Origin: Solidesulfovibrio carbinolicus | GTDB lineage: Bacteria > Desulfobacterota > Desulfovibrionia > Desulfovibrionales > Desulfovibrionaceae | Direction: 5' to 3' | Assembly: GCF_004135975.1 (NCBI RefSeq) | Contig: NZ_CP026538.1 | Span: 310,001 to 374,000, forward strand | DNA length: 64,000 bases | Shown: positions 8,209-18,952 of the stretch, piece after piece | Numbering within the stretch: position 1 is the first letter of the stretch | Layout of the letters: each line of letters starts with the position of its first letter | Program-made: the position numbers and the translations under genes | Notes under the pieces: generated by a model | The model's database searches: none | The model's input: only the letters and a program-made list of their open reading frames with translations | Told to the model about the DNA's origin: nothing

Positions 8209-9921
8209 ATGTGGCGTACGCGTTTCGTCTCCTGGTTGTCCGAGTTGCCCCGGCCCCGAAGATGGCTGCTCCCCTTGGTCCTGGCGCTGGCCGCCGTGCG
8301 CGTGGTTGCCGTGGCCCAGATCCAGCTGCCCTTTAACGGCTGGGACGAGTTGCCGCATCTGGCCGTGGCCTACCACGTCCACAAGACCGGGGCGATGCCC
8401 ACGCCCCGAACGCCCATGCCGCGCGAGCTCGTGCCCTTCATCACGGCCCATCCCCACCCGACCACGTCGCTGTCCATGTTGCGCGGCATTGCCGCCAAGT
8501 CCTACCCCGGCAGCGATCCGGCCTGTTCCCTGGAGCCGGCCAAGCGTTACGACATGTTTTGCTACCAGGCCCAGCACGGGCCGCTGCTCTATTTTCTGGC
8601 CGCGCCGTTTTTGTCCGGCTCCGACCCGGCAAGCCTGCTGGCCTGGGCCGACGGCGTGCGCCTGATAAACGGGCTGCTGCTGTTGCCCACGCTTGTCCTG
8701 TGGCATCGCCTCCTGCGCCGCGTATTCCCCCGCGACGGCCGGCTGTCCTGGCTGTCCGACGGCGTTGTCCTGCTGATGGCCAACTTTTCCTACGTCTTTT
8801 ATAACTTTGTCCGGTTTTCCAATGACGCGTTGGCCCTTTTCCTCGGCACGTCCGCCCTGGCCCTGTACCTGCTGCATATCGCGCCGCGTCCGCTGGCCGC
8901 GCCCGGCTGGTTATGGCGCTACGCCCTGCTTGGCGGAGTTGTCGGGCTGGCTGTGCTGGCCAAATCCACCACCCTGGCCCTGGTTCCGGCTCTGGGTTTG
9001 TCCGTCCTCTGGCAGGGCCGCCGTCCCGGAAGCCGCCGGGCGGCGCTGGTGTGCGCCGCCGCCCTGGCCGCCGGCTACCTCGCCGTGGCCGGCTGGCATC
9101 ATGCCGTCAATTTTGCCAGGTACGGCCAGCCCACGGCCATGCAGGAGGCGGTGCTAAACACCAAACAAGGCTTCGGCCCGGCCCGTTACCTCGCGGCGGC
9201 GGCCAAGCTGGGCTACGGCGTCTTTCGCAACCCCGTGCTGTACAATGCCATCCCCCACGTGGCCGGCTGGTCCAACCTGCGTTCGCCGGACTGGATGAGC
9301 AGCGCCTTCAAGTTGGCCGTGACGTTTTGCGCCGCCGCCCTGGCCGTGGCCCTGGTCCGGTCCAGGGCACGGCGCGAGGCCGGACGGCTCGGCGGCGGCG
9401 CGGTCTGCCTGGGGCTTTTGTGGGTGTTCACCGTGGCCGCCCTGGGCTACCACGCCGTGCATTCGGCCGCCCGCTGGGGCGTGCCCACCACCGGCGGCTG
9501 GTACGGCATGTTGGCCCTGCCCGTGACCTTGGCCGCACTGCTCGCCGGGCCGGCCCTGTGCGGCCGGCGGGCGGGAAGCCTGGCGCTGCTGCTGCTGGTC
9601 GGGGTGTTTAGCGTCGCCTTTCTCGACGGCACCTACGGCGTGCTGCCGTTTCAGGAAACGGGCGCGGCCGGGCTGGCCGAGGCCGGGCGCGTCTTGGCCG
9701 GCCATCACGCCCTGCCGCGCATTCCCCTGCCGGTATTCCTGGCGGCTGACGTGCTGTGTCTGGCGGGCTGCCTGATCCTGGCCCTCGAGGCGGTCTGGCG
9801 CTCGGAAACAGCCGGCAAAGTCGTGCCCTTGCACGCAATACACGCGAGAGCACGGCGGCGTGTCGCCCCCCTGGAGGCCACCCCGGCCCGGATTGGCGCG
9901 GCGGATAGGGCCTTGCCGTAA
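8209..9921 (+). CDS. Polytopic membrane protein, DUF2142/GT-C glycosyltransferase-like
   Basis: 570 residues from ATG at 8209 (GATAGG before it is a weak ribosome site). A cytoplasmic start MWRTRFVSW precedes helix one (WLLPLVLALAAVRVVAVAQ). The first loop carries GWDELPHLAVAYH, the acidic/His arrangement typical of DUF2142 and ArnT-like transferases. Roughly ten to eleven further helices follow, then a basic cytoplasmic tail (RARRRVAPLEATPAR). It stands alone in its direction, next to the fdhF operon but with no functional link apparent. Likely a lipid-linked sugar transferase for surface glycans. Specificity is unknown. Confidence 0.7.
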   Translation: MWRTRFVSWLSELPRPRRWLLPLVLALAAVRVVAVAQIQLPFNGWDELPHLAVAYHVHKTGAMPTPRTPMPRELVPFITAHPHPTTSLSMLRGIAAKSYPGSDPACSLEPAKRYDMFCYQAQHGPLLYFLAAPFLSGSDPASLLAWADGVRLINGLLLLPTLVLWHRLLRRVFPRDGRLSWLSDGVVLLMANFSYVFYNFVRFSNDALALFLGTSALALYLLHIAPRPLAAPGWLWRYALLGGVVGLAVLAKSTTLALVPALGLSVLWQGRRPGSRRAALVCAAALAAGYLAVAGWHHAVNFARYGQPTAMQEAVLNTKQGFGPARYLAAAAKLGYGVFRNPVLYNAIPHVAGWSNLRSPDWMSSAFKLAVTFCAAALAVALVRSRARREAGRLGGGAVCLGLLWVFTVAALGYHAVHSAARWGVPTTGGWYGMLALPVTLAALLAGPALCGRRAGSLALLLLVGVFSVAFLDGTYGVLPFQETGAAGLAEAGRVLAGHHALPRIPLPVFLAADVLCLAGCLILALEAVWRSETAGKVVPLHAIHARARRRVAPLEATPARIGAADRALP

Positions 9922-9943
9922 CCGCCATGTCCTGGCATGGCCT

Positions 9944-9957
9944 GTGCCTCAAGGCAC
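9944..9957 (+). promoter_or_regulatory. Dyad over the fdhF ribosome-binding site
   Basis: GTGCCT-CA-AGGCAC is a perfect 6-bp inverted repeat ending 4 bases before the fdhF ATG. Its right arm contains AAGG, the only ribosome-site candidate for fdhF. It could be an operator or an RNA hairpin masking the ribosome site. With only 40 bases between the genes, read-through from 8209-9921 is possible. Confidence 0.35.
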
Positions 9958-9961
9958 GCCC

Positions 9962-12079
9962 ATGCAACACATCCCCACTATTTGTCCCTACTGCGGCGTC
10001 GGCTGCTCCCTGACGCTTTGTGTCGAGGACGGCCGCGTCGTTCGGGCCGAACCCGGCCCGTCGCCCTCGGTCAACGGCCCGGCGCTGTGCGCCAAGGGCC
10101 GTTTCGGCTTCGATTTCATCACCCATCCCGACCGGCTGCGCGCGCCGCTCATTCGCTCGCGCGGCCGGCTGCTCCCTGCCTCCTGGGACGACGCCCTGGC
10201 CCTGGTCGCCGGCCGGCTGGCCGAGGCCGCCGCGGCCGGCGGCCCGTCGGCCGTGGGCGGCTTTAGCAGCGCGCGCTGCACCAACGAGGAAAATTACCTC
10301 TTCCAGAAGCTGTTCCGGGCCGGGCTTGGCAGCAACAACATCGACCACTGCGCCCGGCTCTGACACGCCCCCACCGTGGCCGGTCTGGCCACCACCCTGG
10401 GCAGCGGCTCCATGACCAACGCTATCGGCGAAATCGCCGCCATGGGGCCGGGCGACGCCTTGTGCGTCATCGGCTCCAACACCACCGAATGCCATCCGGT
10501 CATGGGACTTTCCATGCTCGAAGCCAAGCGCCGGGGGGCGGCACTCGTGGTCATCGACCCGCGCGAGATCGATCTGGCCACACGGGCCGACGTCTGGCTG
10601 CGCTTGACCCCGGGCACGGACGTGACGCTGCTGTCGGCCATGGCCCGGGTGATCGTGGACGAAGGTTTGGCTGACGAAGACTTCATTGCCGCCCGCACCG
10701 AGGGCTTCGAGGCCTTCCACCAGGGCCTAGCCGCCTTTGCTCCCGAGGACGCGGCCGGGGTCTGCGGCGTGCCGGCCGAGGCCATCCGCCGGGCCGCGCG
10801 CCTTTTGGGCAAGGCCGCCAACGCCGCCTTCTACTACACCATGGGCGTCACCCAGCACGTCACCGGCACGGACAACGTCCTGGCCGTGTCCAACCTGGCC
10901 CTGGCCACCGGCAACCTGGGCCGGCCCAAGACCGGGGTGAACCCGCTGCGCGGGCAAAACAACGTCCAAGGCTCCTGCGACATGGGCGCGCTGCCAAACG
11001 TCCTGACCGGCTATAGGCCTGTCGGCGACGCGACGGCCCGGGCCGCCTTCGAGGCCGCCTGGGGCGTGCGGCTGCCGGCCGAGTCCGGGATGACCATCCC
11101 CAAAATGCTCGACGCCGCCCACCACGGCACGCTTCGCGCCATCTACGTCTTTGGCGAAAATCCCATGCGCAGCGACCCGGACGTGGCCCATGTGGCCCAT
11201 TGCCTGAAGGCGCTGGATTTTCTGGTGGTCCAGGACATCTTCTTGACCGAAACGGCCGAGCTGGCCGACGTGGTGCTGCCCGGGGCGAGCTTCGCCGAAA
11301 AGGACGGCACGTTCACCAACACCGAACGCCGGGTGCAGCGGGTGCGCCGGGCCGTGGCTCCCATCGGCCGCAGCCGCCCGGACTGGATGATCCTGGCCGA
11401 GCTGCTGGCCCGGCTGGGCCGGCCCGAACGCTACGCCGACGCCGAGGCCGTCTTTGACGAGATGCGCCGGCTGACCCCCAGCCACGCCGGCATGACCTAC
11501 GCCCGGCTGGAACGCGGCGGCCTGCAATGGCCCTGCCCGGACGAAACCCATCCCGGCACGCCCATCCTCCACGTGGGCCGCTTTGCCCGGGGCCTGGGCC
11601 GGTTCGTGCCGCTGACGGCGCGCTCCCGGGCCGAGCCGCCGGATGACGCCTATCCATTGACCCTGTCCACCGGCCGGGTGTCGCCCCACTACCATACCGC
11701 CACCATGACCCGGCGCTGCTTCGGCCTGGCCGGCGCGGCCCCCGAGGAACTGGCCGAGGTGCACCCCGACGACGCCACTCGCTACGGCATCGCGGACGGC
11801 GGCCTCATGCGCCTGCGTTCGCGCCGGGGCGAGGCCACGGCCCGGGCGCGCGTCACCCGCCGCGTGCCGCCCGGCCTGGTCTTCATGACCTTCCATTTCA
11901 CCGAATCCCCGGCCAACGCCCTGACCACGGCCGAGGCCGACCCCGTGGCCGGCACGCCGTCGTTCAAGGCTTGCGCGGTGGCTATTGCGGGGAGAGAAGA
12001 TGCCTCCGGCGGCCGGGGGGATGATCCCCCCGGACCCCCCGAAAGGGGGAAGGGGGTAAGCGAGGTTGGATGTGAATAG
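9962..12079 (+). CDS. fdhF: Selenocysteine formate dehydrogenase, catalytic subunit
   Basis: The gene is read through an in-frame TGA at 10361-10363 as selenocysteine 134, giving 705 residues. The context NNIDHCARL-U-HAPTVAGL matches the FdhF active site. An N-terminal [4Fe-4S] motif uses C8, C11, C15 and C43. Molybdopterin-binding motifs follow (NPLRGQNNVQGSCDMGALPN, VFGENPMRSDPD, ADVVLPGASFAEKDGTFTNTERR) and then a C-terminal dinucleotide-binding barrel. It interconverts formate and CO2 at a Mo or W bis-MGD centre in the cytoplasm (no Tat signal). It is first in an operon with two polyferredoxins and an [FeFe] hydrogenase. Oddity: about the last 34 residues are encoded by a dispersed hairpin repeat, beyond the usual end near CAVAIAG. 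Confidence 0.93.
10376..10392 (+). promoter_or_regulatory. SECIS hairpin for selenocysteine insertion
   Basis: GTGGCC-GGTCT-GGCCAC is a perfect 6-bp stem with a five-base loop. The loop begins 18 bases after the TGA. The GGTCT loop is the same as the SelB-recognised loop of the E. coli fdhF SECIS. This supports genuine selenocysteine insertion at 10361-10363 rather than a broken gene. Confidence 0.85.
12001..12050 (+). repeat. 3'-end box/hairpin repeat lying within the end of fdhF
   Basis: A purine tract (GGGGAGAGAAGA) leads into TGCCTCCGGCGGCC, then the hairpin GGGGGG-ATGAT-CCCCCC, then GGACCCCCC. This is the same module found after many genes in the window, but here it is read in frame as the fdhF tail (DASGGRGDDPPGPPERGKG). 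Confidence 0.8.
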
Positions 12080-12080
12080 T

Positions 12081-12668
12081 ATGGGATTACGACCTTTTGT
12101 GAGTGTGACGCCTGGGGCCTGCATTGGCTGCCGGGCTTGTGAATTGGCTTGCGCCGCCGCCCATATGGCGGCCGGGGCCACCGTGGGCAGCATGACGCGG
12201 CCCCCGGTCCCCAGGCTCTACCTCGTGCGCGAGGGAGGAACCGCGGCCCCGGTGGCCTGCCGCCACTGCGAGGCCGCGCCCTGCGCCGCCGTGTGCCCCA
12301 CCGCCGCTGTGCGCTGCGACGCCTCGGGGGTGGTGGTCGAACCCGCCCGCTGCATCGGCTGCAAGGCCTGCCTGGCCGTGTGCCCGGTCGGGGCCATGGC
12401 CCTGGCCGAGGTCCAGGACCACGGCCGGCCCGTGCTGCGCCGCGTGCCCGATCCGGCCGCGCCGGGCGGCTTTGTCGAGGAACCGGCCTGGCTGGCCAGC
12501 AAATGCGACCTGTGCCGGGAGCGGCCGGCCGGCCCGGCCTGCGTGGGGGCCTGTCCGGTCGGGGCCCTGTCCCTGGTCGTGCCGGGCGAGGTGCGCCGTG
12601 TTCGGCTCTTGGCCGCCGCCCGGGCCATGGCCGCCGCCGCATCAGGGGCACGGGAGGAAGGAAGATGA
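12081..12668 (+). CDS. Four-cluster polyferredoxin subunit, HycB/HydN-like (first copy)
   Basis: 195 residues from ATG at 12081. A TTG at 12066 in the same frame is an alternative start. Four [4Fe-4S] motifs are present: CIGCRACELAC, CRHCEAAPCAAVC, CIGCKACLAVC, and CDLC with CVGAC. This is the electron-wire family of HycB, HydN and CooF. It ends in an alanine-rich helix (RLLAAARAMAAAASGAREE). The gene starts 2 bases after fdhF, and its stop overlaps the hydrogenase start (ATGA). It should pass electrons between FdhF and the hydrogenase. In the characterised HDCR such subunits also form the filament core. No membrane anchor is present. Confidence 0.88.
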   Translation: MGLRPFVSVTPGACIGCRACELACAAAHMAAGATVGSMTRPPVPRLYLVREGGTAAPVACRHCEAAPCAAVCPTAAVRCDASGVVVEPARCIGCKACLAVCPVGAMALAEVQDHGRPVLRRVPDPAAPGGFVEEPAWLASKCDLCRERPAGPACVGACPVGALSLVVPGEVRRVRLLAAARAMAAAASGAREEGR

Positions 12669-14080
12669 GCGCCCGTCCCGGCATCGCCCCCGTTATTGCC
12701 ATTGACCCGAACCTGTGCACGGGTTGCCGCCGTTGCGCCGAGGTGTGTCCTGTGGGGGCCGTCTCGGGGCCGCAAGGCCAGCCCCAGGCCATCGACGCCG
12801 AGCGCTGTGTGCTGTGCGGCCAGTGCGTGCAGGCCTGCTACGCCTTTGCCGCGCCCTTTGACGAGCCGGCCCACGATCCGGCCGCCATCCGCCGGCAGCG
12901 CGGCGCGTCCGAGGCGGCCGGCCCGGTCTTCGCCGCCCATGCCCGGTGCGATCTCGATGCGGCCAAGGCCTTGGTCGCCGATCCCTCGCGGGTGGCCATG
13001 GTCCAGTGCGCCCCGGCCGTGCGGGTGACCCTGGCCGAGGAATTCGGGCTGGCTCCGGGCTCGCTTACCCCGGGCAAACTGGCCGCCGGCCTGCGCCGCC
13101 TGGGCTTTGCCGTGGTCTACGACACCACCTTTGCCGCCGACGTCACGGTGATGGAGGAAAGCGCCGAACTGCTGGCCCGCATCGCCGAGGGCGGCCGGCT
13201 GCCGCTTTTCACCTCCTGCTGCCCGGCCTGGGTGCGCCATGTGGAAACGGCCTGGCCGGAATTGACCCCCCACCTGTCGTCCTGCAAGTCGCCCCAACAG
13301 ATGGCCGGGGCGCTTTTCAAGAGCTACGCCGCTTCGTTGGATGGTTTCGATCCGGCCGCCGTGGCCAGTGTTTCGGTCATGCCCTGCACGGCCAAGAAGC
13401 ACGAGGCAGCCCGGCCGGAGCTGCGCTCGGGGCCGGCGGACCTCCCCGACGTGGACGCGGTGGTCACCGTGGCCGAGCTGGCCGCCTGGCTCAAGGAGGC
13501 CGGCATCGACTTCGCCGCCCTGCCAGGCGAACCCTTTGACGCGCCCCTGGGCCGCTATTCCGGGGCCGGCGTCATCTTCGGGGCCACGGGCGGGGTCATG
13601 GAAGCGGCCCTGCGCACGGCCGTGGCCCTTTGCGGGGAAGGGCGGGAAACGGCCGGCCCGGAATCGGGCATCGTCTTTTCCCCGGCCGGTCCCGGCGTCG
13701 CCCGGGCCGAGTTCGAGCTGGCCGGGAGCAAGCTGGCCGCCGTCACGGTTTCGGGGCTGGCCAACGTGGGGCCGCTGCTGGAAGCCGTGGCCGCTGGCAC
13801 GGCCGATTTCCAGTTCATGGAAGTGATGTGCTGCCCGGGCGGCTGCGTGGCCGGCGGCGGCACGCCCAAGCTCTTGCCCGGCCTGGACGTGGCCGCCGCC
13901 GTGGCCGCCAGGCGGCAGGCGCTTTGCGACCACGACCGGGCGCTGCCCGTGCGTGCCGCCCACGCCAACCCGGCCGTCACGGAACTCTATGCCGCCTTTC
14001 TGGAGCGGCCGTTGTCCCACCGTTCCCACGAGCTGCTGCACACGGTCTACGGTGGGGCGGCCAAGGGGGGGCACGACTGA
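12665..14080 (+). CDS. [FeFe] hydrogenase, HydA2-like
   Basis: 471 residues from ATG at 12665 (GGAAGGAAG before it). Two N-terminal [4Fe-4S] motifs, CTGCRRCAEVC and CVLCGQCVQAC, occupy about residues 18-60. H-cluster motifs are complete: L1 TSCCPAW, L2 MPCTAKKHEA, L3 EVMCCPGGCVAGGG. The C-terminus (HANPAVTELYAAFLERP, SHELLHTVYGG) resembles the hydrogenase small-subunit domain fused on. The N-terminal [2Fe-2S] domain of long monomeric enzymes is absent, and there is no export signal, so it is cytoplasmic. It makes or oxidises H2. With FdhF and two polyferredoxins on either side, H2 oxidation coupled to CO2 reduction (HDCR) or the reverse is the likely role. HydEFG maturases are not in the window. 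Confidence 0.92.
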   Translation: MSARPGIAPVIAIDPNLCTGCRRCAEVCPVGAVSGPQGQPQAIDAERCVLCGQCVQACYAFAAPFDEPAHDPAAIRRQRGASEAAGPVFAAHARCDLDAAKALVADPSRVAMVQCAPAVRVTLAEEFGLAPGSLTPGKLAAGLRRLGFAVVYDTTFAADVTVMEESAELLARIAEGGRLPLFTSCCPAWVRHVETAWPELTPHLSSCKSPQQMAGALFKSYAASLDGFDPAAVASVSVMPCTAKKHEAARPELRSGPADLPDVDAVVTVAELAAWLKEAGIDFAALPGEPFDAPLGRYSGAGVIFGATGGVMEAALRTAVALCGEGRETAGPESGIVFSPAGPGVARAEFELAGSKLAAVTVSGLANVGPLLEAVAAGTADFQFMEVMCCPGGCVAGGGTPKLLPGLDVAAAVAARRQALCDHDRALPVRAAHANPAVTELYAAFLERPLSHRSHELLHTVYGGAAKGGHD

Positions 14081-14601
14081 TGCACGCCATGGTTTTGGCC
14101 GACGCCGAGCGCTGCATCGGCTGCCGGGCCTGCGAGATCGCCTGCACCCTGGCCCACGCCGCCACTGGGGAAGACCCGGGCCGGGCGGCCGAGGCCGGCG
14201 CGGCCTTTGCCCCGCGCCTGACCGTGGTGCGCGACGGTGGGCTGGCCGTGCCCGTCCAGTGCCGCCAGTGCGAGGCCGCGCCCTGCGCCGCCGCCTGTCC
14301 TACCGGGGCGCTGTATTCCGACGGCCGGGCCGTGGTCGTCGATACGGCCGCCTGCACCGGTTGCAAGGCCTGCCTGGCCGCCTGTCCGGTGGGGGCCATG
14401 GACATGCTGCCGCTGGCCTCCCTGCCCGGGCGCAAGGTTGCCGGCAAGTGCGACCTGTGCGCCGGCCGGCCGGCCGGTCCGGCCTGCCTGGCCGTGTGCC
14501 CGGCCGGAGCGCTGTTTCTCCATGACCCACAGGCGCTTGGTCAACTCTGCGCGGCCAGGCGTCGCCGGGCCGCCCTGGCCTGTGCCGGGTCCGCGCCCTG
14601 A
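14080..14601 (+). CDS. Four-cluster polyferredoxin subunit, HycB-like (second copy)
   Basis: 173 residues. ATG at 14080 overlaps the hydrogenase stop (TGATG), which indicates coupled translation. A second ATG at 14089 is possible. Four cluster motifs are present: CIGCRACEIAC, CRQCEAAPCAAAC, CTGCKACLAAC, and CDLC with CLAVC. The spacing matches the first polyferredoxin, so the pair looks like an ancient duplication kept as two distinct subunits. It ends in a basic, helical tail (LGQLCAARRRRAALACAG). It is the last gene of the fdhF operon. Confidence 0.88.
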   Translation: MHAMVLADAERCIGCRACEIACTLAHAATGEDPGRAAEAGAAFAPRLTVVRDGGLAVPVQCRQCEAAPCAAACPTGALYSDGRAVVVDTAACTGCKACLAACPVGAMDMLPLASLPGRKVAGKCDLCAGRPAGPACLAVCPAGALFLHDPQALGQLCAARRRRAALACAGSAP

Positions 14602-14660: not shown

Positions 14661-14750
14661 CCCCTTTACCCATTTGGGGGGTCCGGGGGCCTCAGGCCCC
14701 CGGCGGAGAGGGTAAGGCAGAGGCAGCGCCTCTCCTGGCCGCCGGAGGCA
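14661..14750. repeat. 3'-end box/hairpin repeat with an added hairpin
   Basis: Read leftward from the substrate-binding-like gene (stop 14763) it is GGGGGGGAATGCCTCCGGCGGCC. An extra hairpin (GAGAGGCGCTGCCTCTGCC region) comes next, then GGGGGCCTGAGGCCCCC and GGACCCCCC. The box sits 12 bases from the stop. This copy carries about 40 bases between box and main hairpin, unlike the others. It separates two convergent operons and probably ends transcription of one or both. Confidence 0.7.
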
Positions 14751-14762
14751 TTCCCCCCCCGC

Positions 14763-15983
14763 TTACCGATGCCGCTCGTAGTACGCCGTGGCGAAGGCCG
14801 CGCCGGATTCGGCGATGAGCGGTCCGAGGTCGCGGCTTTCCAGCACGTCCCAGCCTATAAACCGCAGGCGTTTGCCGGCCGGCATGCCGCCTCCCGTGGC
14901 GGGCAGCGTCGGCGGCAGGGCCGCACCGGCGCAGATGGCCGCCGCTTCCCGGCCCAGGAACAGATCCAGCAGGGGCGTGACGGCTTTATTGGCCGTGGCC
15001 TTGACCATGACGAAGAGCGGCGACACCAGGGCTCCGTCCTCGGGCCAGATGATCTCCACATCCCCTTGGCGCGGGGCGGCGTTGGCGAAAAAGGCCGGCA
15101 TGACGGCGATGGGGGGCGCGTCGGTGCCAGGGGCCGGCCGGAAGACCTGGGCAGGGTGGGTGTCGCAGACCATGGCCCGTCCCAGGGCGGCCAGGGCGTC
15201 CAGGCCGTGGCGCAGGCGGATATGCAGCAGCAAGGTGGAGTCGCCGGCCGTCTCGGGCGGGCCGCACAGGCCGATCTTGCCGGCATAGGCCGGATTGAGC
15301 AGGTCGTCGAAGGAGCGCGGCACGGGGAGCTTGCCCAGGCGCGAGGGCACGGCCACCATCACCAGCGGATTGACGGCGTAGATGCGGCATACGCCGCGCG
15401 GATCGGCCAGCCCGGCCTCGGCCAGGGTCGGGTTGACGTCCTGGGGCAGCCGGGCCAGCAGGTCGCCAGCGGCGAAGCGGTCGCGGAAGCTTTTGGAAAG
15501 AAAGCCGTTTAGGCCGGCCGACACGATCATGTCCGGCACTTCTTCGGGGCGCGTGAGTTCCGAGGCCAGATCGTTAAGGGTGTGCTTGCCGCAGCTGTCC
15601 ATGAAGATGCGTGGCCAGGGGGCGCTTGGCGGCAGGGATTCGCGCAGGTTTTCGAGCGCTATGCCCATGGGGGCCTTGAGCGGGCAGGGCAGGCTCAAAA
15701 ACAGGCGCAGGCCCGGGGAGAGCGGATTCCAGCCGTCGCAAAATAGCGGCGTCATGCCGGGCGCGGGCCGGTCGGCGGCGGCGTGGAGCGCCTCGGCGAA
15801 AAGCGGGGCGGACAGGCCCGAGACGGACAGCAGCGAAGCCATGGACAGAAAGGGCGCGGCGCTGGCCAGGAATTCGGCGTCGGTGGCGGCCGTGATGCCC
15901 AGTTCGGCCAGCACGCCTCGGGCGGCGGGATGAGCGGCCAGGAAGCGGGTCACGGGCAGGGCGAGGTCGGGAAGCTGGGGCAT
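14763..15983 (-). CDS. Cytoplasmic substrate-binding-protein homologue
   Basis: 406 residues from ATG at 15983 (MPQLPDLALP), 8 bases after AGGAG. The core is a periplasmic-binding-protein type II fold of the ferric/polyamine kind: IYAVNPLVMVAVPSRLG, PRSFDDLLNPAYAGKIGLCG, then PPIAVMPAFFAN and SPLFVMVKATANKA. There is no signal peptide or lipobox. The start is a helical segment (RFLAAHPAARGVLAELGI) that resembles DUF1858 domains. It is the last gene of a three-gene unit with an ABC-type ATPase 2 bases upstream and a GTPase. No permease is encoded. It may bind a cofactor or metal complex inside the cell. Function unknown. Confidence 0.75.
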   Translation of the reverse strand: MPQLPDLALPVTRFLAAHPAARGVLAELGITAATDAEFLASAAPFLSMASLLSVSGLSAPLFAEALHAAADRPAPGMTPLFCDGWNPLSPGLRLFLSLPCPLKAPMGIALENLRESLPPSAPWPRIFMDSCGKHTLNDLASELTRPEEVPDMIVSAGLNGFLSKSFRDRFAAGDLLARLPQDVNPTLAEAGLADPRGVCRIYAVNPLVMVAVPSRLGKLPVPRSFDDLLNPAYAGKIGLCGPPETAGDSTLLLHIRLRHGLDALAALGRAMVCDTHPAQVFRPAPGTDAPPIAVMPAFFANAAPRQGDVEIIWPEDGALVSPLFVMVKATANKAVTPLLDLFLGREAAAICAGAALPPTLPATGGGMPAGKRLRFIGWDVLESRDLGPLIAESGAAFATAYYERHR

Positions 15984-15985
15984 GG

Positions 15986-16984
15986 TCATTTCTCCTGGGA
16001 AAAACACAGGGAACCGCCCCGGCGCAGGGAGTCGCGCAGGGCGGCGAGTTTGGCGTCGGCCTCGGCCAGGGCGGCCAGGGACGCGTGTTCCTCGGGGCTG
16101 GTTTCGATGACGGCGGCCACGGCTCCGGCGGCAAAGACCAGCCGGCGGCCGGCGGTCAGGGCCAGGAGCGGATCGTGGGTGGCCATGAGCACGATCTTGC
16201 CGCTGCCGGTAAGGAGTGAAATGGCTTTTCGCCGGTCGATGCCGGCGTTTTCGATCTCATCCACCAGCACGATGGGCGAGGCGCACAGCCGGGCCACGTC
16301 GGCGATCATGAGCGCCCGGCTCTGGCCGCCGGAAAGGGCGGTGAGCGCCGTGTCCGGGCCGAAGGGCTCGCCGGCCAGCGCGTTGGCGAGGCCCTCCACC
16401 GCCTCGGCGGCGGCCGGAGCGTCGGCCAGAAGCCGGCTTTCGGCGTGGGCGATGAGAAATTCGCGTACGGTCAGGTCCATGACGAAATGCATGTTCTGGG
16501 ACAGCTGGGCAACGAGCCGCCCCGAGGCGGCCAGCCGGCCGGCGGCGTCGGCGGTCTTGCCGTCCAGGAGCACCCGGCGGCCCGTTGGTGTGTCGCCGTC
16601 GGCCAGCCATTCGACGTCGGCCAGAAAGCGGCTCTTGCCCGAGCCGGTGGGACCGACCAGGGCAACCACATCGCCGGGGACAAGGGTCAGGTCGAGGCGC
16701 TCGGGCCGGCCGTCCTTGCCCGTGCCGCCGCGCACGGTGAGGGAGGCGACGCGCGGCGCGTCGGCCCGAAGGCGCGGCAGGGCGGCGAGAAAATCCGCGA
16801 ACCGGGCGAAGAGTGTGGCGGCGTCCGTGCCGACCTCGGCCAGGGCGTCCGGGGTCAGGGCGGCGAAGTAGTCGGCCGGGGCGGCTTCGGGGGCGGGCAT
16901 GGGCAGGCCCTGGGCGGCGAAGAAATCCCGGGCCGGGGGCAGGGCCTCCCAGATGGCGGCAAAGGTCGGGTACTTCCTGGTCAT
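15986..16984 (-). CDS. Soluble ABC-type ATPase with N-terminal helical domain
   Basis: 332 residues from ATG at 16984. The first ~70 residues (TFAAIWEALPPARDFFAAQG) look like the N-terminal segment of the substrate-binding homologue next door. A complete ABC domain follows: Walker A GPTGSGKS (111-118), Q-loop LVAQLSQNMHF, signature LSGGQS, Walker B IVLVDEIE, H-loop MATHD. The signature and Walker B are intact, so ATP hydrolysis is expected. No membrane segment or permease partner is encoded. Its start overlaps the GTPase stop by 4 bases. Likely works with the two neighbours as a cytoplasmic ATP/GTP-driven device. Ordinary importer function is unlikely unless a distant permease is shared. Confidence 0.8.
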   Translation of the reverse strand: MTRKYPTFAAIWEALPPARDFFAAQGLPMPAPEAAPADYFAALTPDALAEVGTDAATLFARFADFLAALPRLRADAPRVASLTVRGGTGKDGRPERLDLTLVPGDVVALVGPTGSGKSRFLADVEWLADGDTPTGRRVLLDGKTADAAGRLAASGRLVAQLSQNMHFVMDLTVREFLIAHAESRLLADAPAAAEAVEGLANALAGEPFGPDTALTALSGGQSRALMIADVARLCASPIVLVDEIENAGIDRRKAISLLTGSGKIVLMATHDPLLALTAGRRLVFAAGAVAAVIETSPEEHASLAALAEADAKLAALRDSLRRGGSLCFSQEK

Positions 16985-17679
16985 GCCGGCTCCCGGGGAA
17001 AGTCCATTTTGCGCACGTTGCCCATCTGGTGGTCGGTGCCGATCTTGCGCTGGCCCAGGCAGTAGGAGCACACGGCGGCGGGCATGGTGAAGCGCAGGCT
17101 GGCCCCGTCGAGGGTCGGCGTGGCCGGCGCGCCGGCGACGACGTGGGCCAGGGCTTCGGCCCCCTGGCCGGTCAGGCCGCTGACGAAAAGCACCGTGGCC
17201 CGGGGATTGGCCCGGCGCACGCGGAAGGCGAAGACCTCGCGCTCGGCCTGGGAGACCACGTCGCCCTTGGTGACGGCCACCACGTCGGCCAGGCGCAGCA
17301 TGGGGCCGATCTTGGCCGGGGTGTCGATGCCCGAGAGGTTGTCGACGACGCACACGGCCAGGGCTCCTTCGACGTGGGGGGCGCAGCGGTTGCACAGGCC
17401 GGCGCTTTCGACGGCCAGGACGTCGAGGCCCCGGGACAGGCCCCAGGCGTGGGCATCGGATGCGTTGCACACGAAAAAATGGTCCGGGCACAGCGCCCCG
17501 GACTGGCCGGCGGCGCAGGGGATGCCGGCGGCGTCGAAGACGTCCTTGTCGCGGCCGGTCAGGCAGTCGAACTTGACCACGCCCAGGCGTTTGCCCTGGC
17601 GGCCCAGCACGGCGGCGAGCTTGAGCAATACGGACGTCTTGCCCGATGACGGCGGGCCGGCCACGGTGACAAGTTGCAT
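16981..17679 (-). CDS. HypB/UreG/CobW-like GTPase with cysteine pairs
   Basis: 232 residues from ATG at 17679, preceded by AGGAGCGAG. P-loop GPPSSGKTS is at 9-17, a switch/Walker B-like segment VLAVESAGLC follows, and the base-specificity motif is TKGD. Cysteines cluster as CAAGQSGALCPDHFFVC, CNRC and a C-terminal CSYC, suggesting metal or Fe-S binding. The family contains metallochaperone GTPases that deliver nickel or cobalt to enzymes. First gene of the three-gene unit, with a 4-base overlap to the ATPase. Position facing the formate dehydrogenase/hydrogenase operon suggests, but does not prove, a role in metalloenzyme assembly. Confidence 0.8.
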   Translation of the reverse strand: MQLVTVAGPPSSGKTSVLLKLAAVLGRQGKRLGVVKFDCLTGRDKDVFDAAGIPCAAGQSGALCPDHFFVCNASDAHAWGLSRGLDVLAVESAGLCNRCAPHVEGALAVCVVDNLSGIDTPAKIGPMLRLADVVAVTKGDVVSQAEREVFAFRVRRANPRATVLFVSGLTGQGAEALAHVVAGAPATPTLDGASLRFTMPAAVCSYCLGQRKIGTDHQMGNVRKMDFPREPA

Positions 17680-17764
17680 GGGGAATCTCGCTCCTTGTTG
17701 CCTCGCCGACTTGTGATCGGCCAGAAAGCCCCCTCCGTCAACGTGGCGCGGGCGGACGGGACGC

Positions 17765-18952
17765 TCAGGAGACGCGGGAACCGGGCGGGCAGTCGATGGC
17801 GGTTTCGGCCTGGCGCACGCAGTTGCGGGCCTCGTCCTTGGCGGCGAGCAGGGCCATGTCGGCCAGGCGCAGGAAGTCCGCGCCGGAGTCGTCCAGGCTG
17901 CCCCGGCGGCTGGAGACGCCGATGGTGGCTGTGAGCGGCTCGGGCAGGCCGTAGCTTTCCCAGTCGTGGCAGGCGATGGCGGCGCGCAGGTTTTCGGCCA
18001 GCCCGGCGGCGCGGTCCGGGGGGGTGCCGGCCATGACGACGCAGAATTCGTCGCCGCCGATGCGGGCCACGAAGCCGAACGCTCCGACCTCGCGGATGAG
18101 GATGCGGCCCAGCTCCACCAGCACCACGTCGCCGGCGGCATGGCCCAGGCGGTCGTTGACGGTCTTGAAATGGTCGAGGTCGATAAGCGCCAGGCTGGTC
18201 CAGTCGTTTCGGGCGGCGGCCCGGGCCAGGGCGTCGGTGAAAGCGGCTTCGAACCCGCGCCGGTTGGCCAGGCCGGTCAGGTGGTCGATGTCGGCCAGGC
18301 GGCGGATTTCGGCTTCGGAGCGTTCCCGATGCAGCAGCACGAAGCCCAGGGTGCAGGCGATGAGGCTGGGGGCGGAAATGAGCAGGGAATAGGTTTGGAC
18401 GGGACCCGAGGCAAAGGGGTTGACGCTGGGGTTGTCGCTTAAGTAGGCAGCCGCGCCACGCAGCAGGCAGGCTCCGGCTCCCAGGACATAGCCCAGGGCG
18501 AAGATGACGATGACGCGCAGGCGGTACTGGTTGCGCCGGGCCAGGAGCACCCCGGCCAGCATGAGGCATTGCACGGTGTAGAGGGCGTTGGCGAAGATGG
18601 TGCGGGTCCGGGCGGCGTCCATCCAGGCCGTGAAGATGCAAAGGGCCAGAAGCAGCGGCAGGGCATAGGCCAACCGGCTGCGCCGGTTGCCGAAAAAAAC
18701 GTCCAGGGAGGCGAGGTAGCAGGTCCAGGAGGCCGTGAAGAGGAGATTGGCCAACAGGATGGAGGCGATGTTCGGAATTTGGCCTCGCAACATGAAGAGC
18801 GGCCCTGCGGTCAGTTGCGCCGCCATGCCGGCAATCCAGAGCCAGGCTCCCTTGGCCCGGGAATCGGAAAAGGCCACTGCAAGCATGACGGCAATGCAGA
18901 GGTTGGTGACGAAGTAGAGCGTGATGGTAGTGGGGAAGTCCAGGACCGGCAT
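17765..18952 (-). CDS. Membrane-anchored diguanylate cyclase (GGDEF)
   Basis: 395 residues. Six hydrophobic segments lie between about residues 8 and 210, with short loops and no large periplasmic sensor. A GGDEF domain follows (about 225-385): DHLTGLANRRGFEAAF, DLDHFKTVNDRLGHAAGD, and the active-site signature RIGGDEF, which is intact. No upstream RxxD inhibitory site is obvious. It makes cyclic di-GMP from two GTP. No EAL domain is present. It stands alone between the GTPase unit and ahcY. The membrane part may sense an unknown signal. Confidence 0.88.
   Translation of the reverse strand: MPVLDFPTTITLYFVTNLCIAVMLAVAFSDSRAKGAWLWIAGMAAQLTAGPLFMLRGQIPNIASILLANLLFTASWTCYLASLDVFFGNRRSRLAYALPLLLALCIFTAWMDAARTRTIFANALYTVQCLMLAGVLLARRNQYRLRVIVIFALGYVLGAGACLLRGAAAYLSDNPSVNPFASGPVQTYSLLISAPSLIACTLGFVLLHRERSEAEIRRLADIDHLTGLANRRGFEAAFTDALARAAARNDWTSLALIDLDHFKTVNDRLGHAAGDVVLVELGRILIREVGAFGFVARIGGDEFCVVMAGTPPDRAAGLAENLRAAIACHDWESYGLPEPLTATIGVSSRRGSLDDSGADFLRLADMALLAAKDEARNCVRQAETAIDCPPGSRVS

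Follow-up and report, generated by a model that had tools for sequence, protein, structure and literature searches.

Which enzyme does a sulfate reducer encode when a formate dehydrogenase, an [FeFe] hydrogenase and two polyferredoxins are packed into one operon, and what does the cell use it for? This question is raised by four plus-strand genes at positions 9962–14601 of a 64,000-nucleotide stretch of the Solidesulfovibrio carbinolicus genome (contig NZ_CP026538.1, positions 310,001 to 374,000), which we refer to as the window. We conclude, with a probability of about 0.88, that they encode a cytoplasmic four-subunit complex of a group-A4 [FeFe] hydrogenase and a formate dehydrogenase (FDH), of the hydrogen-dependent CO2 reductase (HDCR) type, which is the same as a soluble formate:hydrogen lyase. 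The tight packing claimed in a preliminary description of the locus is borne out by coordinates read directly: the first HycB-like gene begins after a 1-base gap past the fdhF stop, hydA overlaps that gene by 4 bases (ATGA), and the second HycB-like gene overlaps hydA by 1 base (TGATG).

Chains of the Thermoanaerobacter kivui HDCR (PDB 7qv7) are the best solved match for all four proteins. The hydrogenase gene (12665–14080, plus strand) encodes a HydA2-type group-A4 enzyme in which an H-cluster domain (PF02906 and PF02256) follows two N-terminal [4Fe-4S] motifs; its product scores 494 bits against 7qv7, with the next chain at 340 bits. In a careful tree, this HydA and T. kivui HydA2 fall within one group of 35 rows (support 100/100), set against 19 other [FeFe] hydrogenases, and the grouping was recovered in 100% of 200 bootstrap trees. 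The tree was built from 54 of 114 collected rows, with a hand-picked 19-row outgroup and with the long rows L004 and L005 excluded; a quick tree of 62 rows, containing L004, L005 and another outgroup sample, supported the HDCR group at only 71. The 35 rows comprise the window, T. kivui, ten named loci and 23 of 24 family stretches, the excluded stretch (L127) having a broken frame. The named loci were drawn from 80 of 596 confirmed relatives in the genome collection, and at eight of the ten the stretch retrieved includes FdhF; T. kivui is represented by its PDB rows, and Acetobacterium woodii is absent from all comparisons. Taken together, the protein families, the 7qv7 matches and the HydA tree confirm the HDCR subunit set (FdhF, HycB-like, HydA2-like, HycB-like) first proposed for this operon, and the hydrogenase takes the place among HDCR enzymes that the preliminary description had thought worth checking by phylogeny. 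A gene for the maturase HydG lies at another place in the genome (TIGR03955).

The same description had stated that membrane and NiFe subunits are lacking, and this holds for the operon and the flanking open reading frames (ORFs) tested, where no NiFe, NAD(P)- or flavin-binding, or membrane-complex families were found. With no group-4 [NiFe] or membrane subunits in that region, the operon does not fit a membrane [NiFe] formate hydrogenlyase.

A HydA2-type hydrogenase occurs in 26 of 199 genomes of the family, a set delimited by our own reading of the score gap (25 genomes at 494 bits or more, plus G143 with a broken gene). Within the genus, 7 of 14 genomes carry such a gene, counting broken and rewired ones. 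We inspected the neighbourhoods of 24 of the 25 relatives (G179 excluded) together with the window, and since the four-gene order is kept in 22 of these 25 genomes, the arrangement is not due to chance. Two of the three exceptions (G160, G097) are cut by contig ends, and the third, G167, has a different arrangement described below. Two otherwise complete operons carry a broken frame, in hydA2 at L127 (G143:C101) and in fdhF at L138 (G151:C3), reflecting either decay or an assembly error; a third, L124, has an insertion of ~1.2 kb between fdhF and hycB.

The fdhF gene (9962–12079, plus strand) encodes the catalytic subunit of a cytoplasmic selenocysteine (Sec) formate dehydrogenase with a molybdenum or tungsten bis-pyranopterin guanine dinucleotide (Mo/W-bis-PGD) cofactor and one [4Fe-4S] cluster. 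It reaches 828 bits with the TIGR01591 model (cut-off 666) and 721 bits with T. kivui FdhF in 7qv7 (next 692), and no signal peptide was seen when its N-terminus was read by eye. Residue 134 is specified by an in-frame TGA (10361–10363, plus strand), found at the identical residue in all 21 family FdhF copies that passed a length filter. Twelve bases 3' of this UGA lies a hairpin resembling a selenocysteine insertion sequence (SECIS; 10376–10392, plus strand), with a 6-bp stem and a GGUCU loop that we take to resemble that of E. coli fdhF. In an alignment of 17 of 23 sequences, all 102 of 102 cells of the stem are paired and four of the six pairs have changed on both sides, a covariation that none of 500 shuffles matched. 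The energy of the region folded as a single sequence was ordinary (z −0.17), and nothing in the window matched Rfam when its gathering thresholds were applied. A tRNA-Sec was detected in the genome at 83 bits, with three more matches just above the 47-bit cut-off; all 14 control genomes gave matches, five of them above the cut-off. Like the subunit families and the conserved gene order, these Sec signals are direct observations.

Assembly of the complex, its electron path, its activity and its reversibility we infer by analogy with the enzymes of T. kivui, A. woodii and Clostridium beijerinckii. FdhF would reduce CO2 or oxidise formate at its Sec-Mo/W site, and electrons would pass from its [4Fe-4S] cluster through the HycB3-type polyferredoxin, then the HycB4-type one, to HydA2, where H2 would be oxidised or protons reduced. 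Polymerisation through the C-terminal helices of the polyferredoxins may also be possible.

What would such a complex do in this host? Most likely, it equilibrates the cytoplasmic pools of H2 and formate. In a genome rated 100% complete, we found no match to formyltetrahydrofolate synthetase (FTHFS; 4 of 14 control genomes positive) or to a CdhC-type acetyl-CoA synthase (only two archaeal controls positive), and because neither was found to carry formate onward, an H2/formate exchanger fits better than a fixation enzyme. Acetogen-style fixation, in which H2 reduces CO2 to formate for the folate branch of the Wood–Ljungdahl pathway, is described as the role of the enzyme in A. woodii and T. kivui (PMC12905484, in part), and a passage of PMC6288185 suggests that HDCRs of sulfate reducers likewise feed the acetyl-CoA pathway. 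This published use of formate is not supported for the present genome: apart from the two missing enzymes, FTHFS exceeds the cut-off in none of the 14 genomes of the genus and in only 3 of the 26 family genomes that bear HydA2, compared with 53 of the 173 others. Within the reach of these searches, whose CdhC controls were positive only in archaea and which did not extend to PurT-type formate use, fixation appears quite improbable.

The complex could instead work mainly in one direction, as a soluble formate hydrogenlyase converting cytoplasmic formate to H2 and CO2. Descriptions of related enzymes speak for this, since the C. beijerinckii Fdh/Hyd works both ways (PMC12905484, in part) and the putative fhl of D. 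alaskensis is named for this direction in the available text of PMC4215793. Against it, no clear pyruvate formate-lyase (PFL) was found to supply cytoplasmic formate, a search of the genome for FNT transporters gave no match (other transporters not being excluded), and the direction is set by concentrations, which cannot be read from sequence. The single PFL-superfamily protein (PF02901) falls below every cut-off, and its translation is cut short; judged by a GCVEP loop rule that we assume to apply, its active-site loop, read by eye as YGIIGCVEP, and its low scores make a pyruvate formate-lyase unlikely, though the truncation leaves the protein ambiguous. We regard a mainly formate-consuming role as possible but doubtful, and return to an exchanger of H2 and formate, which would be in line with the putative formate:hydrogen lyase of D. 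alaskensis as presented in part of PMC4215793.

Several observations weigh against this reading of the enzyme and its role. The FTHFS contrast among family genomes reaches only p 0.06 in a Fisher test that ignores kinship, and D. alaskensis putative fhl mutants reportedly grew about as well as their parent on formate and lactate (PMC4215793, in part). As for the subunits, the FdhF of the window is not in the group to which T. kivui FdhF belongs (100/98); both window polyferredoxins match HycB4 best; the upstream HycB of the window and T. kivui HycB4 do not form one supported group; T. kivui HycB3 has no supported position (30/0) in a tree whose program warns of long branches; and an Asn of the upstream C-terminal helix is Leu or Ile in all five copies of the operon from the window's genus (0/5 Asn). 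The FdhF and polyferredoxin findings are considered in turn.

In a careful FdhF tree of 35 rows, the window groups with the family copies, Clostridium magnum f1 and C. ragsdalei (24 rows, 66/90), while T. kivui FdhF sits with seven further copies from HDCR-type loci and two methanogen FDHs. A tree joining T. kivui to the window lineage was rejected (approximately unbiased (AU) test, p 0.0009), the tested grouping having been named after a quick first tree, which showed the same split, was seen. Despite this split, the rows nearest to T. kivui FdhF by identity (54%) and by path belong to the window lineage. At a C. magnum locus (L046), both FdhF lineages adjoin one hydrogenase, so FdhF lineage does not define the HDCR kind. 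Placement beside an acetogen-type FdhF thus did not hold for the T. kivui protein, but the kin of the window FdhF adjoin HDCR-type hydrogenases in its own family, in C. magnum and in C. ragsdalei, which sets it apart from unrelated soluble enzymes. Since the window FdhF falls outside the T. kivui group while the core stays the same, the most economical explanation is a replacement of the FDH partner around a stable hydrogenase/polyferredoxin core.

The different FdhF lineage, and the fact that assembly is read from genes alone, could also suit a soluble FDH and a ferredoxin hydrogenase that share an operon without forming a joint complex. This appears highly improbable given the two polyferredoxin genes, whose positions are the same in 22 of 25 family genomes, and the stable four-subunit complex demonstrated for the C. 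beijerinckii enzyme (PMC12905484, in part). The closest FdhF copies outside the family, among the loci compared, are clostridial (C. magnum f1 and C. ragsdalei, 59% identity), and they bear on one further candidate, an electron-bifurcating FDH/hydrogenase of the type named Hyt, which would exchange electrons with NADP and ferredoxin. Heptameric complexes of this kind are known from Clostridium (PMC12905484, in part). Such an enzyme is barely credible here, as neither the operon nor the flanking ORFs tested encode a subunit that binds flavin or NAD(P), and an HDCR-type complex remains our interpretation.

The two polyferredoxins, P0002 (12081–12668, plus strand) and P0004 (14080–14601, plus strand), are each predicted to bind four [4Fe-4S] clusters. 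In each, 16 Cys are invariant across its 21-sequence alignment, sufficient for the four clusters, and P0002 has 17 in total. Against the T. kivui HDCR, P0002 scores 165 bits to HycB4 and 117 to HycB3, and P0004 115 and 106, respectively. A HycB tree of 69 rows unites 32 downstream copies, including the second HycB of the window, in one group (98/97); the remaining 37 comprise 35 upstream copies, one of them T. kivui HycB4, together with T. kivui HycB3 and the second copy of G167. The two polyferredoxins thus belong to different lineages, and both carry four [4Fe-4S] motifs. Because the upstream copies do not form one supported group and the tree carries a long-branch warning, the labels HycB4-type for P0002 and HycB3-type for P0004 are based on gene position, match scores and C-terminal motifs. 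In the downstream lineage, R161 is invariant (21/21).

Structure prediction places a C-terminal helix at residues 168–193 of P0002, with a predicted local distance difference test (pLDDT) score of 76–85 over the block and 59 at its extreme end, and at residues 150–170 of P0004, where pLDDT falls from 82 to 68. Whole-model means are weak (59 and 62, respectively), and Foldseek returned 7qv7_B as the top match for both models at TM-scores of only ~0.4, as expected of weak models. The invariant Cys and predicted helices agree with the original claim of four cluster motifs and a C-terminal helix on both proteins. In T. kivui, these C-terminal helices mediate HDCR filaments (PMC10413684, in part). 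The upstream-helix Asn replaced in the genus of the window is kept in 25 of 30 other upstream copies, including T. kivui and the rewired copy of G167, a member of the same genus; this count covers all 34 upstream copies and T. kivui, and an earlier count on 21 copies gave 0 of 4 in the genus against 16 of 17 elsewhere. This replacement of the Asn weakens the case for filaments here, although they may still form. Being a natural variant of the HycB4 helix, it could serve as a comparison when filament formation is related to activity.

Upstream of the operon lies a sigma54-like −24/−12 element, TGGCATGGCCTGTGCC (9933–9948, plus strand). A GG-N10-GC element is found 27–29 bases before the fdhF ATG at all 15 loci of the window FdhF clade, where it agrees with 10–11 of 12 consensus positions; it was seen at that place at none of eight loci outside the clade. 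These scores come from a consensus of our own, set after the sequences had been seen. In the window, the GC lies 14 bases before the fdhF ATG. The usual sigma54 spacing would put the transcription start on that ATG or only a few bases from it, and the transcript would then be leaderless or nearly so. A Desulfovibrio sigma54 consensus is given as tGGcacg/tTGCt in part of PMC4641369. Expression of the operon is probably controlled by sigma54, with a palindromic operator in place of the sigma54 element as an alternative. In relatives, a pair of a PAS kinase and an NtrC-type regulator (named by eye from translations) lies downstream at ten loci, and HydG/HydE-like genes (HydE named by eye) at eight; the HydG copy of L133 matches the same place in the window genome as TIGR03955. 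A search of the window genome for the relatives' PAS kinase returned only generic kinases, the best at 34% identity.

The C-terminal ~25 residues of FdhF are encoded within a GC-rich palindromic repeat resembling repetitive extragenic palindromic (REP) elements (12005–12060, boundaries approximate, plus strand), which lengthens the C-terminus outside the conserved enzyme and differs from the nearest relative, a small correction to the extent of fdhF. At up to 3 mismatches, the repeat has 10 matches in the window, against 1.28 expected; further matches lie at 14676, 18009, 38352, 42894, 43042, 46034, 49052, 56361 and 58129. Beside the GC-rich repeat in G133, the nearest relative, fdhF and hycB are separated by an IS110-like element (named by eye). 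Among the flanking genes, the upstream ORF at 8209–9918 has no family match, and minus-strand ORFs at 14763–18141, facing the operon, encode an SBP_bac_6 solute-binding protein, an ATP-binding cassette (ABC) ATPase and a CobW/HypB-like GTPase, possibly a metal-handling set.

A different setting of the same core is found in the genus-mate G167 (L158/L159, G167:C200:11000-39000, minus strand), where HydA2 is part of a larger cluster with FocA-, MobA- and HyfB/C/E/F-like genes, a NuoB-like gene, FdhD, two FdhFs, extra HycBs, a 30/49-kDa subunit without NiFe ligands and a complex-I-like (Ehr-type) membrane arm. Here, HydA, HycB-like proteins and the first FdhF were identified by tblastn, PF00146, PF00329 and PF00346 by family, and the rest by eye; the NiFe ligand motifs used are general knowledge. 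The contamination of G167 is estimated at 5%, and its contig could be foreign or misassembled. The 30/49-kDa large subunit was matched at E ≤ 1e-90 in 17 of 395 phylum genomes, G167 included. Around the other 16 genes no HydA2 was found in the stretches examined, five of which are shortened by contig ends; the NiFe motif is absent from 15 of these 16 large subunits and kept in G154. That genome, of the same family, has a membrane formate hydrogenlyase-like cluster (L190, G154:C4:211000-230500) with its NiFe motifs, a FocA-like gene and two FdhF copies. FDH-Ehr complexes have been proposed in PMC6349859, the available text of which mentions no [FeFe] hydrogenase in such a cluster.

More speculatively, and rather unlikely as a whole, the HDCR-type complex of this family might be a sigma54-switched cytoplasmic valve that equilibrates H2 and formate pools and takes no part in fixation, with its core a rewired plug-in module whose FdhF partners are exchanged; in G167, this core, two FDHs and the NiFe-less Ehr-type arm could make an ion-pumping [FeFe] formate/H2 machine.

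Among known systems, E. coli FHL-1 shares the HycB-like polyferredoxins (7z0s_B is the third-best match of those in the window), but the window operon has an [FeFe] hydrogenase and no [NiFe] or membrane subunits. The FdhF of FHL-1 presumably also carries Sec. The T. kivui HDCR is closest, with the same four subunit types, the best matches to all four proteins and a HydA in the same fully supported group; it differs in having Cys where the window FdhF has Sec (PMC13397495, in part), in an FdhF from another group and in the HycB4 helix Asn, which is Leu in the window. By description, the A. woodii HDCR and the group-A4 C. beijerinckii Fdh/Hyd share the subunit composition, and A. woodii FdhF2 is also a Sec protein (PMC6288185 and PMC12905484, each in part); in contrast to both as there described, the window holds one compact operon with no adjoining fdhD or second fdhF. 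Putative HDCR or formate:hydrogen lyase clusters of the same kind, again by description, are already published for sulfate reducers, including Desulfovibrio magneticus, D. alaskensis and D. salexigens (PMC6288185; D. alaskensis also PMC4215793; both in part). The HDCR-type interpretation is thus supported, and its kind is not new. Our analysis adds four points not met in the limited literature searched: an FdhF that belongs to another group, acetyl-CoA-pathway genes that were not found, a sigma54-like element common to the FdhF clade, and a HycB4 helix that has changed. Because HDCRs convert CO2 to formate rapidly, they attract interest for storing hydrogen. A Sec member in a host that seems to have no acetyl-CoA pathway would uncouple this enzyme from acetogenesis, and its physiological role would become testable by deletion.

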